The translations under genes were made by a program, and so were the position numbers. The notes beneath the pieces are model-generated. The model did no database searches. It had not been told where the DNA came from and worked only from the letters and a program-made list of their open reading frames with translations. A stretch of 64,000 nucleotides of DNA from Pseudomonas fluorescens (lineage in GTDB: Bacteria > Pseudomonadota > Gammaproteobacteria > Pseudomonadales > Pseudomonadaceae): contig NZ_OZ024668.1 in NCBI RefSeq assembly GCF_902497775.2, positions 2,193,826 through 2,257,825 on the forward strand. The letters run 5' to 3'. This document shows, piece after piece, positions 53-5,479 of this stretch (position 1 is its first letter; the number at the start of each line of letters is the position of its first letter).

Positions 53-3000
53 ATGCACCTGCTGCGGACCCAGCCCGGTGGTTTTGTACCGGACGACAGC
101 ATTGCCGACCTCGGCCAGACCCCGGCCGAGCTGGTAATCCTCTGCAGCGGTGACTCGCACCTGGCGCTGCTGGCCGAAACCACCCAGCAGCTGCCCGAGG
201 ATTTCCCCAGCCTGCGTCTGGCCAACCCGATGCAGGTACAGAACCATGCCTCGGTCGACCTCTATGTCGACCAGGTATTGCGCCATGCCAAGGTTATCCT
301 GGTGTCGCTGCACGGCGGCGTCGGTTACTGGCGCTATGGTGTAGAGCAACTGCTGGAACTGGCCGCCCGTGGCGTGCAACTGATCCTCGTGCCGGGCGAC
401 GACCGTCCGGACCCGGAACTGACCAGCTTGAGCACGGTGCCGGCCGACCAGGCCGAGCGGCTCTGGCACTTTCTACGCCAGGGCGGCAAGGCCAATGCCC
501 TGAACCTGTTCAACTGCCTGGCCAGCCAGTACCTGAATCGCGACTACTCCTGGAGCGAACCGCAGCAACTGCCGCGCACGTCGGTGTATCACCCGCGCAA
601 GGCGGCTGCGGCGCTGGAGGATTGGTTCGGCCAGTGGCAGGTCGAGCAGCCGGTGGTGCCGATCCTGTTCTACCGCTCGCACCTGCAGGCGGCCAACACC
701 GCCTTTATCGATACCTTCTGCGAACGTATGCAACTGGCCGGGCTCAACCCCTTGCCGATTGCCGTGGCCAGCCTCAAGGAGGCCGCTTGCCTGCAACAGG
801 TCGAAAACTGGCTGGAGCAGGTTGACGCCGCACTGATCATCAACACCACAGGCTTTGCCCAGTCCAGCCCCGAACAGCCGCACTTGCGCCCGTTCCGCCG
901 CGACATCCCGGTGTTGCAGGCGATCTGCGCCCAGGACAACGAACCAGCCTGGCAGGCCAGCGAGCAGGGCCTGGGTGCCCGCGACCTGGCCATGCACATC
1001 GCCTTGCCGGAGCTGGACGGGCGCATCATTACCCGGCCGATCAGCTTCAAGGACCTGGCCTGGCGCAGCGAGCGCAGCCAGTCCGATGTGGTCTGCTATC
1101 GGGCCCAGCCCGAGCGCATGGACTTTGTCGCTGAGCTGGCGCGGCGCTGGTGCGCCCTTGGGCAAATACCCAATGGGCAAAAGCGCGTGGCGCTGATTCT
1201 GGCCAACTATCCGACCCGCGATGGCCGCATTGGCAATGGCGTGGGCCTCGACACCCCGGCCGCGGCGCTGAACATCCTGCGGGCTTTGCAGGCCCAGGGT
1301 TATCCTCTGGCACCCTTGCCCGACAGCGGCACGGCGCTGATCCAGGCTTTGCTCGGTGGTGTCAGCAACGACCTGGACAGCCTCGACCTGCGCCCGTGCA
1401 TGCAGAGCATGGCCCTGGAGGATTACCTGGCGGCGTTTGCCGCCTTGCCCGAGGCCAACCAGGTCGCCGTGCGCGAACGCTGGGGCGAGCCGAGCCAGGA
1501 CCCGATGTTCCGTGGCGGGCGCATGATGATCGCCGGCCTGCGCTACGGCCTGACGTTCGTCGGTATCCAGCCGGCCCGTGGCTACCAGCTGGACCAGAGC
1601 GCGGTCTACCACGACCCCGACCTGGTGCCGCCGCACGCTTACCTGGCGTTCTACTTCTGGCTGCGTCACGGCTTTGCCGCCGATGCGCTGATCCATGTCG
1701 GCAAGCACGGCAACCTCGAATGGCTGCCGGGCAAGGGCGTCGGCTTGTCCGCGAACTGCTGGCCGGACGCCTTGCTCGGCCCGCTGCCGAACATCTACCC
1801 GTTTATCGTCAACGACCCGGGCGAGGGCGCCCAGGCCAAGCGCCGCACCCAGGCGGTGATCATCGACCACCTGATGCCACCGCTGACCCGCGCCGAAACC
1901 TACGGGCCGTTGCGTCACCTGGAGTTGCTGGCCGACGAGTACTACGAGGCGCAGCTGCTCGATCCGCGTCGGGCCCGGGAGCTGCAGCGCGACATCCTGG
2001 CGCTGGTACGCGACAACCATATCGACCGCGAACTGCAGATCGAAGGTGCACTGGACGATGCGGCAGTGTGGCTGCCGCGCCTGGATACCTACCTGTGCGA
2101 CCTCAAGGAGTCGCAGATCCGCGATGGTTTGCACGTGTTCGGCGAGTCGCCTGCCGGGCGCCTGCGCATCGACACCCTGCTGGCTCTGTTGCGGGTCGAG
2201 CGCGGCGATGGGCGCGGGGCCAACGGCAGTTTGTTGCGCGCCCTGGCCAAGGCGCTGGAGTTGGGCTTCGATCCGCTCGATTGCGACCTTGGCCAAGCCT
2301 GGCAGGGCCCTCGGCCTGCGCAGTTGGCTACATTGGACGATGCATGGCGTACGGCCGGCGATACCCGCGAGCGCCTGGAACTGTATGCCGGTCAGCTGAT
2401 CGAGCAGACACTCGTCGGCGCTGTGCAGCTTGCCGGCGGCCCTGAATGGGCGCAAGTGCAGGCCATTCTCGAGGCGCTGCAGCAGCAGGTCGCACCGCAG
2501 TTGGACGGCTGCGGTCCGGCAGAAATGCACGGCCTGCTCGCCGCCCTCGATGGCCGATTCGTCCCCGCCGGCCCCAGTGGCGCACCAAGCCGCGGACGGC
2601 TGGATGTGCTGCCGACCGGGCGCAACTTCTATACCGTCGATGTGCGCAACTTGCCGACCACCACTGCCTGGCGCATCGGCTTTGCCTCGGCCAACCTGAT
2701 CCTTGAGCGGCACCTGCAGGACCACGGTGATCACTTGCGCCAATTGGGCCTGTCGGTGTGGGGCACGGCGACCATGCGCACTGGTGGCGATGACATCGCC
2801 CAGGCCATGGCCCTGCTCGGTGTACGGCCGGTGTGGGCCAGCGGCAGCCAGCGGGTCGACGACTTCGAAATCCTGCCCTTGAGCCTGCTCGACCGGCCGC
2901 GGGTGGATGTCACTTTGCGGGTCTCGGGGTTCTTCCGCGACGCCTTCGGCAACCTGATCAAGCTGTTCGATGCTGCGGTGCAAGCAGTGGCGGCGCTGGA

Positions 3001-3811
3001 TGAGCCGGACGACCTCAACCCTCTGGCGGCCAAGGTACGCAACGAGCGCGCAGAACTGCTGGCCCAGGGCCTGGATGCCGAACAGGCGGGCCGTCAGGCC
3101 GGCTGGCGGGTGTTCGGGGCCAAGCCGGGCGCCTATGGTGCTGGGGTGCAGAATGCTATCGATGGGCGCCTGTGGAATGACCGTCAGGACCTGGCCGAGG
3201 TTTACTTGAACCACGGTGGCTATGCCTATGGCACTGGCGATGACGGCACGCCGGCGCGCGCTCACTTTGCCCGGCGCCTGAGCCAGGTGCAGGCGGTGCT
3301 GCAGAACCAGGACAACCATGAGCACGACCTGCTCGATTCCAACGACTACTACCAGTTCCAGGGCGGTATGCTCGCCGCTGTGGAAAGCCTGGGCGGCAAC
3401 AGCGTTGCCAGCTACCACGGCGATCATAGCCAGCCCGACCGGCCGCGCATCCGCACCCTTAAAGAGGAGCTGAACCGGGTGATCCGCGCCCGGGCGCTGA
3501 ACCCCAAGTGGATCGATGGGGTCAAGCGTCATGGCTATAAAGGTGCCTTCGAGCTGGCCGCCACCGTCGACAACCTGTTCGCCTTCGATGCCACCACGCA
3601 CCTGATCGACGACCACCATTATCAGTCGCTGGCCGATGCCTATGTGCTCGACGGCGCGACCCGCGACTTTATCCGTCAGCACAATCGCGAAGCCTTGCGC
3701 GATATCACCGAACGCCTGCTCGAAGCCCAGCAACGCGGGCTGTGGCAAGACCCCGGTGACTACCGTGAAGCCCTGGAAGAACAACTGCTGGACGGCGAAG
3801 AAGAGAATTGA
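53..3811 (+). CDS. cobN: Cobaltochelatase large subunit CobN
   Basis: A 1252-residue protein, the usual length of CobN, the large subunit of the ATP-dependent chelatase that inserts cobalt into hydrogenobyrinate a,c-diamide in the aerobic B12 pathway. The CobN/BchH family core is visible around residues 500-620 (HVGKHGNLEWLPGKG, then NDPGEGAQAKRR), and the C-terminal part has the conserved YYQFQGGM and HGYKGAFE segments near residues 1100-1165. ATG 53 follows the upstream stop by three bases, so the genes are co-transcribed. The next gene begins one base after the TGA, consistent with an operon that supplies the AAA+ and VWA partners. A very long open frame on the opposite strand is a GC-rich codon shadow. 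Confidence 0.96.
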   Translation: MHLLRTQPGGFVPDDSIADLGQTPAELVILCSGDSHLALLAETTQQLPEDFPSLRLANPMQVQNHASVDLYVDQVLRHAKVILVSLHGGVGYWRYGVEQLLELAARGVQLILVPGDDRPDPELTSLSTVPADQAERLWHFLRQGGKANALNLFNCLASQYLNRDYSWSEPQQLPRTSVYHPRKAAAALEDWFGQWQVEQPVVPILFYRSHLQAANTAFIDTFCERMQLAGLNPLPIAVASLKEAACLQQVENWLEQVDAALIINTTGFAQSSPEQPHLRPFRRDIPVLQAICAQDNEPAWQASEQGLGARDLAMHIALPELDGRIITRPISFKDLAWRSERSQSDVVCYRAQPERMDFVAELARRWCALGQIPNGQKRVALILANYPTRDGRIGNGVGLDTPAAALNILRALQAQGYPLAPLPDSGTALIQALLGGVSNDLDSLDLRPCMQSMALEDYLAAFAALPEANQVAVRERWGEPSQDPMFRGGRMMIAGLRYGLTFVGIQPARGYQLDQSAVYHDPDLVPPHAYLAFYFWLRHGFAADALIHVGKHGNLEWLPGKGVGLSANCWPDALLGPLPNIYPFIVNDPGEGAQAKRRTQAVIIDHLMPPLTRAETYGPLRHLELLADEYYEAQLLDPRRARELQRDILALVRDNHIDRELQIEGALDDAAVWLPRLDTYLCDLKESQIRDGLHVFGESPAGRLRIDTLLALLRVERGDGRGANGSLLRALAKALELGFDPLDCDLGQAWQGPRPAQLATLDDAWRTAGDTRERLELYAGQLIEQTLVGAVQLAGGPEWAQVQAILEALQQQVAPQLDGCGPAEMHGLLAALDGRFVPAGPSGAPSRGRLDVLPTGRNFYTVDVRNLPTTTAWRIGFASANLILERHLQDHGDHLRQLGLSVWGTATMRTGGDDIAQAMALLGVRPVWASGSQRVDDFEILPLSLLDRPRVDVTLRVSGFFRDAFGNLIKLFDAAVQAVAALDEPDDLNPLAAKVRNERAELLAQGLDAEQAGRQAGWRVFGAKPGAYGAGVQNAIDGRLWNDRQDLAEVYLNHGGYAYGTGDDGTPARAHFARRLSQVQAVLQNQDNHEHDLLDSNDYYQFQGGMLAAVESLGGNSVASYHGDHSQPDRPRIRTLKEELNRVIRARALNPKWIDGVKRHGYKGAFELAATVDNLFAFDATTHLIDDHHYQSLADAYVLDGATRDFIRQHNREALRDITERLLEAQQRGLWQDPGDYREALEEQLLDGEEEN

Positions 3812-3812
3812 G

Positions 3813-4814
3813 ATGAGCGAACCTGCACACTTCCCCCTGGCCGCCGTGGTCGGCGCCGATGAGCTGAAACTGGCGCTGTGCCTGACGGCCATTGACCCTA
3901 AGATCGGCGGCGTGCTGATCGAAGGTCCGCGCGGCATGGCCAAGAGCACCCTGGCCCGCGGCCTGGCCGATTTGCTCGGTGAGGGGCCATTCGTGACCTT
4001 GCCGCTGGGCGCCAGTGAAGAACGCCTGGTCGGTACCCTCGACCTGGATGCGGCGCTGGGCCAGGGCAAGGCGCAGTTTTCGCCCGGGGTGCTGGCCAAG
4101 GCCGATGGCGGCGTGCTGTATGTGGATGAAGTCAATCTTTTGGCGGATCATCTGGTCGACCTGTTGCTGGACGTGGCCGCCAGTGGCACCAACCGGGTCG
4201 AGCGTGACGGTATCTCCCACCGCCACAGCGCCCGTTTCGTGCTGATTGGCACCATGAACCCGGAGGAGGGCGAGTTGCGCCCGCAGCTGCTCGATCGCTT
4301 TGGCTTGAACGTGGTGCTCGAAGGCCAGCCGTTGCCACAAGCCCGTGGCCAGATCATTCGCCGGCGCCTGGATTTCGACAGCGATCCCGAAGCGTTCTGC
4401 GCGCAATGGGCACCGGCCCAGGCTGCTCTGCGTGAACGCTGCCATGGCGCCCGTGAACGCCTGCAACAGATTGCCCTGGATGATCAGGCCCTCGCGCAGA
4501 TTACCGAGCGCTGCTTTGCTGCAGGTGTCGATGGCCTGCGCGCCGACCTGGTCTGGCTGCGCGCCGCCCGGGCCCATGCGGCCTGGCGCGGCGCGCTGGC
4601 GATCGAGGCCGAGGATATCGATGCCGTGGCCGAGTTCGCCTTGCGCCATCGGCGCCGCGAAGCCCCGGCGCCACAGCCGCAAGCGCCTGATACCGGCGCA
4701 GCGGCGCAGCCATCGTCCGGCCAGCAAGGCCAGGGCCAATGGGGCGAAATGGCGCCACAAGCCACCCCGAGCGGTGCCCGTCGTGAGGTACCGAACTGGG
4801 CAAAAAAGCCCTGA
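3813..4814 (+). CDS. chlD: AAA+ ATPase subunit of cobalt/magnesium chelatase (ChlI-like)
   Basis: The 333-residue product is the AAA+ part of a class I chelatase. It has a Walker A (GPRGMAKST, residues 33-41), a Walker B region (GGVLYVDEVNLL), a sensor-1-like GTMNPEEGELRPQLLDRFG segment, and a Pro/Gln/Ala-rich tail. ATG 3813 is chosen because it lies one base after the cobN TGA and starts the family-typical SEPAHFPLAAVVGA; the frame is open further upstream only as a cobN shadow. The product ends GCA AAA AAG CCC TGA, and this end carries a -1 frameshift signal (4802-4842) that can extend translation into the VWA frame. It would act with CobN in ATP-dependent metal insertion. Confidence 0.9.
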   Translation: MSEPAHFPLAAVVGADELKLALCLTAIDPKIGGVLIEGPRGMAKSTLARGLADLLGEGPFVTLPLGASEERLVGTLDLDAALGQGKAQFSPGVLAKADGGVLYVDEVNLLADHLVDLLLDVAASGTNRVERDGISHRHSARFVLIGTMNPEEGELRPQLLDRFGLNVVLEGQPLPQARGQIIRRRLDFDSDPEAFCAQWAPAQAALRERCHGARERLQQIALDDQALAQITERCFAAGVDGLRADLVWLRAARAHAAWRGALAIEAEDIDAVAEFALRHRRREAPAPQPQAPDTGAAAQPSSGQQGQGQWGEMAPQATPSGARREVPNWAKKP

Positions 4815-4842
4815 GCATCCGTCGGCCCACCAGCGCGGATGC
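4802..4842 (+). promoter_or_regulatory. Programmed -1 ribosomal frameshift signal
   Basis: The sequence shows the heptamer A AAA AAG at 4802-4808, in phase with the AAA+ frame (GCA AAA AAG). A 6-nt spacer containing the zero-frame stop (TGA 4812-4814) follows, then a perfect 7-bp stem, GCATCCG 4815-4821 pairing with CGGATGC 4836-4842, with a 14-nt loop. A Shine-Dalgarno-like GAGG sits at 4785-4788, 13 nt upstream. A slip of -1 leads directly into the VWA frame. The layout matches dnaX-type frameshifting and the published use of frameshifting in bacterial chlD genes to make two chelatase subunits. Confidence 0.82.
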
Positions 4843-5479
4843 CAAACCCCGACCTGGAGCACTTGCCACAGGCCCGCGTGGCCGGGGTAAACAGGCTGCA
4901 TCCGGTGCGGTGGCCTGGCCTGCGACCTTGCTCAAGGGGCGCCCGCGTCAGCGCAATGACCTGTGCTGGCAACAACGCACGGCCAGTGCCCATGAACTGT
5001 GGCTGGTGATTGTCGATGCGTCGGCGTCCACCCGCCGGCATCAGGCCCTGAGCCGGGCCAAGGGCATGCTTGCCGGGTTTTTCGATCAGGCTTATCGCAA
5101 CCGCGCGCGCTTGACCCTGCTCACCGCCAGCGGCAATGCGCCGCGTTGGCAGCGTCACGGGCTCAAGGCGTCGGTCAGCTTGCAGCCATGGCTGGAGGCA
5201 TTGGGGGCGGGGGGCGGTACGCCATTGCTGGCGGCACTGGAGCAGGCTCGGGACTGGCTGCAGGCGCGCCAGCGACGCTATCCGACCGAACTGCAGCGTT
5301 GCCTGATTGTGACTGATGGTCGGCTCAAGGCCTGGGAAGCACTGCAGCCGTTACCTTGCCAGGCGCTGTTGGTGGATATCGAAAGTTCGCCAATCAAGCT
5401 GGGCAGGGCGCAGTTACTTGCGCAACAACTGCACGCCGATTATCAGCATCTGGAGACACTGGCGATACTCGGCAAGTAA
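4808..5479 (+). CDS. chlD: VWA (CobT/ChlD C-terminal) part, reached by -1 frameshift
   Basis: In the -1 frame the sequence is open from the slippery site to TAA 5479. It encodes a basic linker (RRPTSADAKPRPGALATGPRGRGK) and a von Willebrand A domain with the MIDAS motif DASAS (in VIVDASAST) and a later TDGR. The basic stretch before GTG 4910 resembles the linker that precedes VWA in ChlD/BchD, so translation probably enters by frameshift as one protein of about 555 residues. Independent starts are possible but weak: CTG 4811 overlaps the upstream stop, and GTG 4910 lacks a well-placed ribosome binding site. The VWA part would bridge the AAA+ ring and CobN. Confidence 0.8.
   Translation, partial: ALSIRRPTSADAKPRPGALATGPRGRGKQAASGAVAWPATLLKGRPRQRNDLCWQQRTASAHELWLVIVDASASTRRHQALSRAKGMLAGFFDQAYRNRARLTLLTASGNAPRWQRHGLKASVSLQPWLEALGAGGGTPLLAALEQARDWLQARQRRYPTELQRCLIVTDGRLKAWEALQPLPCQALLVDIESSPIKLGRAQLLAQQLHADYQHLETLAILGK

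Follow-up and report, generated by a model that had tools for sequence, protein, structure and literature searches.

The locus studied here belongs to the cobalt chelatase of a pseudomonad, the enzyme inserting cobalt into vitamin B12; its AAA+ and VWA parts come out as two separate ORFs when frames are called mechanically. The window, namely the whole stretch of DNA that was analysed, comprises 64,000 nt of Pseudomonas fluorescens (GCF_902497775.2, NZ_OZ024668.1, 2,193,826-2,257,825, forward strand). As shown in Table 1, cobN was located directly 5' of the AAA+ ORF, ending 1 nt before its start codon. The 0-frame codons at the junction were AAC TGG GCA AAA AAG CCC TGA, with the first A of the heptamer at codon position 3, and the VWA frame was exactly -1 relative to the AAA+ frame and open from 15 nt 5' of the heptamer to 5479. 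The hairpin follows the heptamer after a 6-nt spacer, and an additional U-G pair is possible, giving a stem of 7-8 bp. The original prediction had placed an in-phase A AAA AAG, this spacer and a 7-bp stem at the boundary; all of its coordinates held, its assignment of the VWA part to the -1 frame was exact as far as 5479, and its trans-frame peptide NWAKK-ALSIR had been correctly read.

Table 1. Features of the chelatase locus (window coordinates)
Feature	Position	Strand	Basis
cobN, large cobaltochelatase subunit	53..3811	+	TIGR02257 cobalto_cobN 1726 bits (cut-off 822); PF02514
0-frame AAA+ ORF, 333 aa, putative short product (small, ChlI/CobS-like subunit)	3813..4814	+	PF07728, PF17863
GAGG, proposed SD-like stimulator, not a conserved element	4785..4788	+	11/54 junctions
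Slippery heptamer A_AAA_AAG	4802..4808	+	sequence; conservation in relatives
-1 frame after the putative slip, linker and VWA domain, 223 aa	4808..5479	+	PF13519 VWA_2
0-frame TGA, predicted to terminate the short product	4812..4814	+	sequence
Hairpin GCATCCG (4815-4821) / CGGATGC (4836-4842)	4815..4842	+	perfect 7-bp stem, 14-nt loop; covariation in relatives
GTG, first separate VWA-frame start codon 3' of the slip site, not conserved	4910..4912	+	sequence

The two ORFs were revealed to be successive parts of one protein family, TIGR02442 (putative cobaltochelatase). The AAA+ part scored 410 bits and aligned best over profile positions 88-340; for the VWA part the score was 63 bits, at positions 458-641. 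Each fell below the curated whole-protein cut-off (779 bits), as expected for separate halves. The AAA+ part also matched TIGR02030 with 337 bits, below the curated cut-off. The closest solved chains to the AAA+ part (6l8d, 8osf and 1g8p) are named as magnesium-chelatase ChlI or 38 kDa subunit, and that to the VWA part (2x31, E 1.8e-6) as the magnesium-chelatase 60 kDa subunit. In the organism's own genome, strong TIGR02442 pieces (345, 65 and 60 bits) were confined to this locus, four other matches reaching 20-28 bits, and CobS was not found at 1e-10; the TIGR02442 and CobS profile searches thus detected no other small chelatase subunit in this genome. The same lid domain occurs in another AAA+ gene of this genome (341 aa), which scored 28 bits to TIGR02442 and which we take to be MoxR-type. 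A scan with PF07728 gave strong matches to ATPases of other appearance, presumably MoxR/NorQ-type, and was uninformative for small subunits.

We consider it highly probable that this chlD-type gene of the cobalt chelatase is read by a programmed -1 ribosomal frameshift. For some ribosomes translation would end at the TGA at 4812, giving the 333-aa AAA+ small subunit. In other ribosomes both tRNALys would re-pair at A_AAA_AAG from AAA/AAG to AAA/AAA with the help of the hairpin that lies 6 nt further 3', and subsequent reading in the -1 frame would yield a 555-aa AAA+-linker-VWA medium subunit (length counted by hand). CobN, encoded directly upstream, would then form the cobalt-inserting complex together with both products. 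The proposal is based on the sequence layout, its conservation, covariation, domain make-up and the finding of no other small subunit; the occurrence and efficiency of slippage in this organism, like the roles of the subunits, are inferred.

By count the heptamer itself was unremarkable: AAAAAAG occurred nine times on both strands of the window against 4.6 expected, and at least nine times in 6 of 100 shuffles, so that conservation has to decide. In a sample of 59 genomes of the genus, the locus was present in 56, and cobN co-occurred with it in the same 56; both were missing from the other three (G014, G041 and G042), which gave weak AAA+ matches only. An in-phase AAAAAAG was found at 54 of the 56 loci. 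The 0-frame stop codon was TAG at 35 and TGA at 19 of these 54, and at 53 it began 10 nt downstream of the heptamer's first base; L016 had lost the early stop and retained the heptamer. This conservation was maintained despite the fact that CCA, GCA and AAA are minority codons in the same genes (14% of Pro, 8% of Ala and 29% of Lys codons, respectively).

The pattern extended to the wider collection of loci, which combines the genus sample, further relatives and named genomes (sets that overlap in part; 128 distinct junctions). The in-phase heptamer was found at 136 of 141 loci, or at 136 of the 138 assessable Pseudomonadaceae-type loci that remain after exclusion of three on truncated contigs. 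Named records carrying it include P. putida, P. fluorescens, P. viridiflava and P. koreensis. Among 95 further loci the heptamer was present in 82, with the VWA frame at -1 in 81 of them, the exception being L223, on a short contig ending early, which gave +1. The 13 loci without it consisted of three truncated ones, four from Marinomonas, Gordonia, Corynebacterium and Nocardia, and six from Caballeronia, Paraburkholderia and Trinickia, and the last six, read by eye, were split at -1 with a seven-A run. One record titled Pantoea sp. Cy-639 (L206) has a junction typical of Pseudomonas and is possibly mislabelled.

These counts also bear on whether the split merely reflects a pseudogene or a sequencing error. 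Two of the 138 assessable loci, L013 and L056, lack the heptamer and do look decayed or erroneous; L056 lies in an indel-rich assembly in which cobN is also in three pieces. The in-phase heptamer at the other 136, combined with a VWA frame at -1 wherever it was readable among them, save L223, refutes such an explanation for the family and leaves it exceedingly improbable. In L013 (G052) the heptamer was changed, the VWA frame broken and cobN distributed over two frames, indicating decay or assembly error.

Of the 54 junctions, 47 (43 of them distinct) were used to assess the downstream hairpin for compensatory changes. These do not include the window's own stem, as the 3' arms of L001 (the window), L002, L003, L006 and L036 were left unaligned by MAFFT; also left out were L044, because it required a gap, and L055, absent from both alignments. 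Standard pairs occupied 92.7% of the cells, 6 of the 13 pairs were changed on both sides, and structures slid along the alignment as controls were 34-55% paired. On four of five measures none of 500 shuffles scored as high, and on the fifth 3 of 500 did. At columns 18/43 the pair was C-G in 20, U-A in 19 and U-G in 4 junctions. Exchange between C-G and U-A here combines an Ile change that is silent (ATC/ATT) with an Asp/Asn change, and this joining of a silent and a replacement change at one pair points to selection on the RNA. Among further relatives, L210, L218 and L222, read by eye, are examples in which the stem was restored with different letters; at the corresponding position L055 had 3 bp and no clear stem. 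Alignment across pseudomonads, the check that had been suggested for this junction, thus showed the heptamer and stem to be kept while the flanks drift.

Folding energies gave a consistent picture for the family. Relative to mononucleotide shuffles, the mean fold z over the 128 distinct junctions was -4.4, with 111 below -2; 510 control windows averaged -0.4, with 9.6% below -2. The window's own hairpin was modest and at the weak end of the family: its 44-nt fold had a z of -1.9, its 101-nt fold was no better than shuffles (z 0.36), and its energy was -14.9 kcal/mol versus a family mean of -26.3 kcal/mol. Rfam gave no match at the gathering threshold within the window.

Slippage could in principle also occur during transcription, the A run giving rise to mRNAs of altered length, and some relatives within the order have runs of 9-10 As, which would suffice for it. 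The pseudomonad run, however, is usually of six As, and more than seven As is the figure cited for transcriptional slippage in PMC3711429; moreover, the covarying hairpin is a better fit to ribosomal slippage. We therefore regard the transcriptional route as very unlikely.

The upstream GAGG, which the original prediction had counted among the stimulatory elements, is indeed present in the window but was not conserved as a stimulator: it falls in Glu-Val codons and was found upstream of the heptamer at 11 of 54 junctions. An SD-like stimulator found no support: compared with synonymous recodings of the junctions, the energy of the anti-SD duplex showed no advantage (mean difference 0.13 kcal/mol, mean rank 0.51). 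The upstream SD-like element of a dnaX-type signal is therefore lacking as a conserved feature, GAGG itself notwithstanding.

The VWA part might instead be a second gene, translationally coupled and with a start of its own at the GTG at 4910 or elsewhere. In the window, initiation at this GTG would keep the VWA domain intact, and at 32 of 54 junctions a TTG recurred at offset 126 or 132 of the VWA frame. This TTG is located at a Leu codon, so that its recurrence may reflect codon choice; nevertheless, given the 32 junctions, separate starts at some junctions are conceivable. Only 18 of 54 junctions had a GTG at this codon or one next to it, and 5 had an ATG within the first 150 nt of the VWA frame, whereas 10 had no ATG, GTG or TTG in that stretch, and no single start codon was common to all 54. 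A single good separate VWA start kept across homologues, which would have spoken for two genes, was not encountered. Together with the heptamer at 54 of 56 loci and the covarying hairpin, these observations argue against a separate VWA start, and the probability that we assign to two genes is accordingly very small.

The features that characterize the fs-chlD frameshift group were found at this locus as follows: a single chelatase gene whose AAA+ and VWA halves lie in different frames, an in-phase A-rich slippery site at their boundary, cobN together with no separate small subunit detected, and a downstream RNA structure that covaries in relatives although it is modest in the window. The programmed frameshift, and with it the predicted production of a short AAA+ and a long AAA+-VWA subunit from one gene, is well supported by the layout, the conservation and the family membership of the halves. 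In pseudomonads a single gene thus very probably specifies two subunits of the cobalt chelatase.

The organization of the gene was further surveyed across the order, in which 85 of 390 genomes matched at 1e-60. Of these, 68 were outside Pseudomonadaceae and 61 were analysed, the weak matches in G098, G538, G595, G654, G708, G725 and G742 being left out; a class-level search gave 19 of 321 genomes, whose loci (L086-L109) are outside the analysed set. Ten of the 61 loci were split and 51 fused, and all ten split loci had an A6-A10 run starting at most 28 nt from the stop. A second full ChlI match was found in none of the 61 genomes, although G684 has an incomplete further piece on a different contig. 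Genes resembling CobS gave strong matches, still under the curated cut-off, in G113 and G540 (458 and 464 of 559 bits); five other genomes gave weak ones (94-114 bits).

Among the 51 fused genes, 11 contained an in-phase A_AAA_AAN followed within three codons by a stop in the -1 frame. Under synonymous recoding the mean number of such sites was 3.4 and none of 500 recodings reached 11; codon permutation gave a mean of 2.05, with 0 of 2000 as high, and the excess weighted over 23 genera had a P of 0.003. An in-phase heptamer at all was present in 13 fused genes against 8.4 under recoding, a count reached by 11 of 500. Since L079, L084 and L085 had prompted the idea in the first place, these P values are post hoc and exploratory, and the test was confined to A_AAA_AAN sites. 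The remaining 40 fused genes had no in-phase A_AAA_AAN with a near -1 stop.

Several observations accompany these counts. In genus g16, the fused L079, L084 and L085 have the in-phase site and near -1 stop and are without CobS; L074 and L141 are without such a site and have a CobS-like gene. For 33 of the 51 fused genes, such a site and any CobS match, however weak, were both lacking. Genus g332 of the order has two split loci (L152 and L156) and three fused ones (L153-L155), and all five have an A9 run at the junction. The -1 frame of L153-L155 stops 3 nt after this run, and their downstream folds are weak; the run phase differs in L156, and the assemblies are drafts.

We tentatively suggest, as a possibility that we rate somewhat below even, that two mirror-image layouts exist: slippage would extend the protein in pseudomonads, whereas in part of the order's fused relatives, among those that yielded no separate small subunit, it would truncate the protein to a short, dnaX gamma-like subunit. 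Against this count the origin of the idea in part of these data, the 40 fused genes without such a site, 33 of which also gave no CobS match, and the weak folds of L153-L155. The A9 run shared by split and fused loci of genus g332 would then mean that the two-product output was kept while the layout flipped. If true, selection would favour the presence of both products, irrespective of the frame that gives the long one. No paper on such a layout was found in the one open-licence literature library searched; this extension may be new and is offered as a lead.

A 2020 work by Antonov reportedly also concerns the fs-chlD, or magnesium chelatase, frameshift cluster. The frameshift signal of the window is real and conserved, and is already published for the genus Pseudomonas. 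It is not new because the 23-gene chelatase cluster described in 2013 includes Pseudomonas (Antonov 2013, PMC3711429) and a Pseudomonas stem was printed in 2016 (PMC5009743); the original prediction had remarked that chlD frameshifting is published for other bacteria, and the literature covers Pseudomonas itself. P. aeruginosa is placed in stage 8 of a 2022 table (Kuznetsov 2022, PMC9227772). The fs-chlD cluster as described in these sources (PMC3711429, PMC9227772) likewise has a split AAA+/VWA gene, a -1 shift at an A-rich site and a link to cobalt chelatase, and no essential difference from its description in PMC3711429 was apparent. Three chelatase cassettes shifted 63, 40 and 10% in E. 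coli (PMC3711429); their A runs (11, 9 and 7 As) are all longer than the A6G of the window.

The junction of P. protegens printed in the 2016 review shares with the window its place, the stem core GGCATCCG...CGGATGCC and the A_AAA_AAR shift site, but its stem is longer than the 7-8 bp found here (PMC5009743). That review also proposes a triplex; the stem of the window is without a long purine tract. While the review calls the stem sequence not strongly conserved (PMC5009743), the present analysis indicates conservation of the structure through compensating changes, and thereby adds such evidence for the hairpin where little sequence conservation had been reported. With E. coli dnaX (tau/gamma), the locus shares A_AAA_AAG, a downstream hairpin and two subunits from one gene (PMC3711429). 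Unlike dnaX, the chelatase gene has no conserved SD-like stimulator, and whereas the shift in dnaX yields the short product, that in the pseudomonad chelatase gene would yield the long one.
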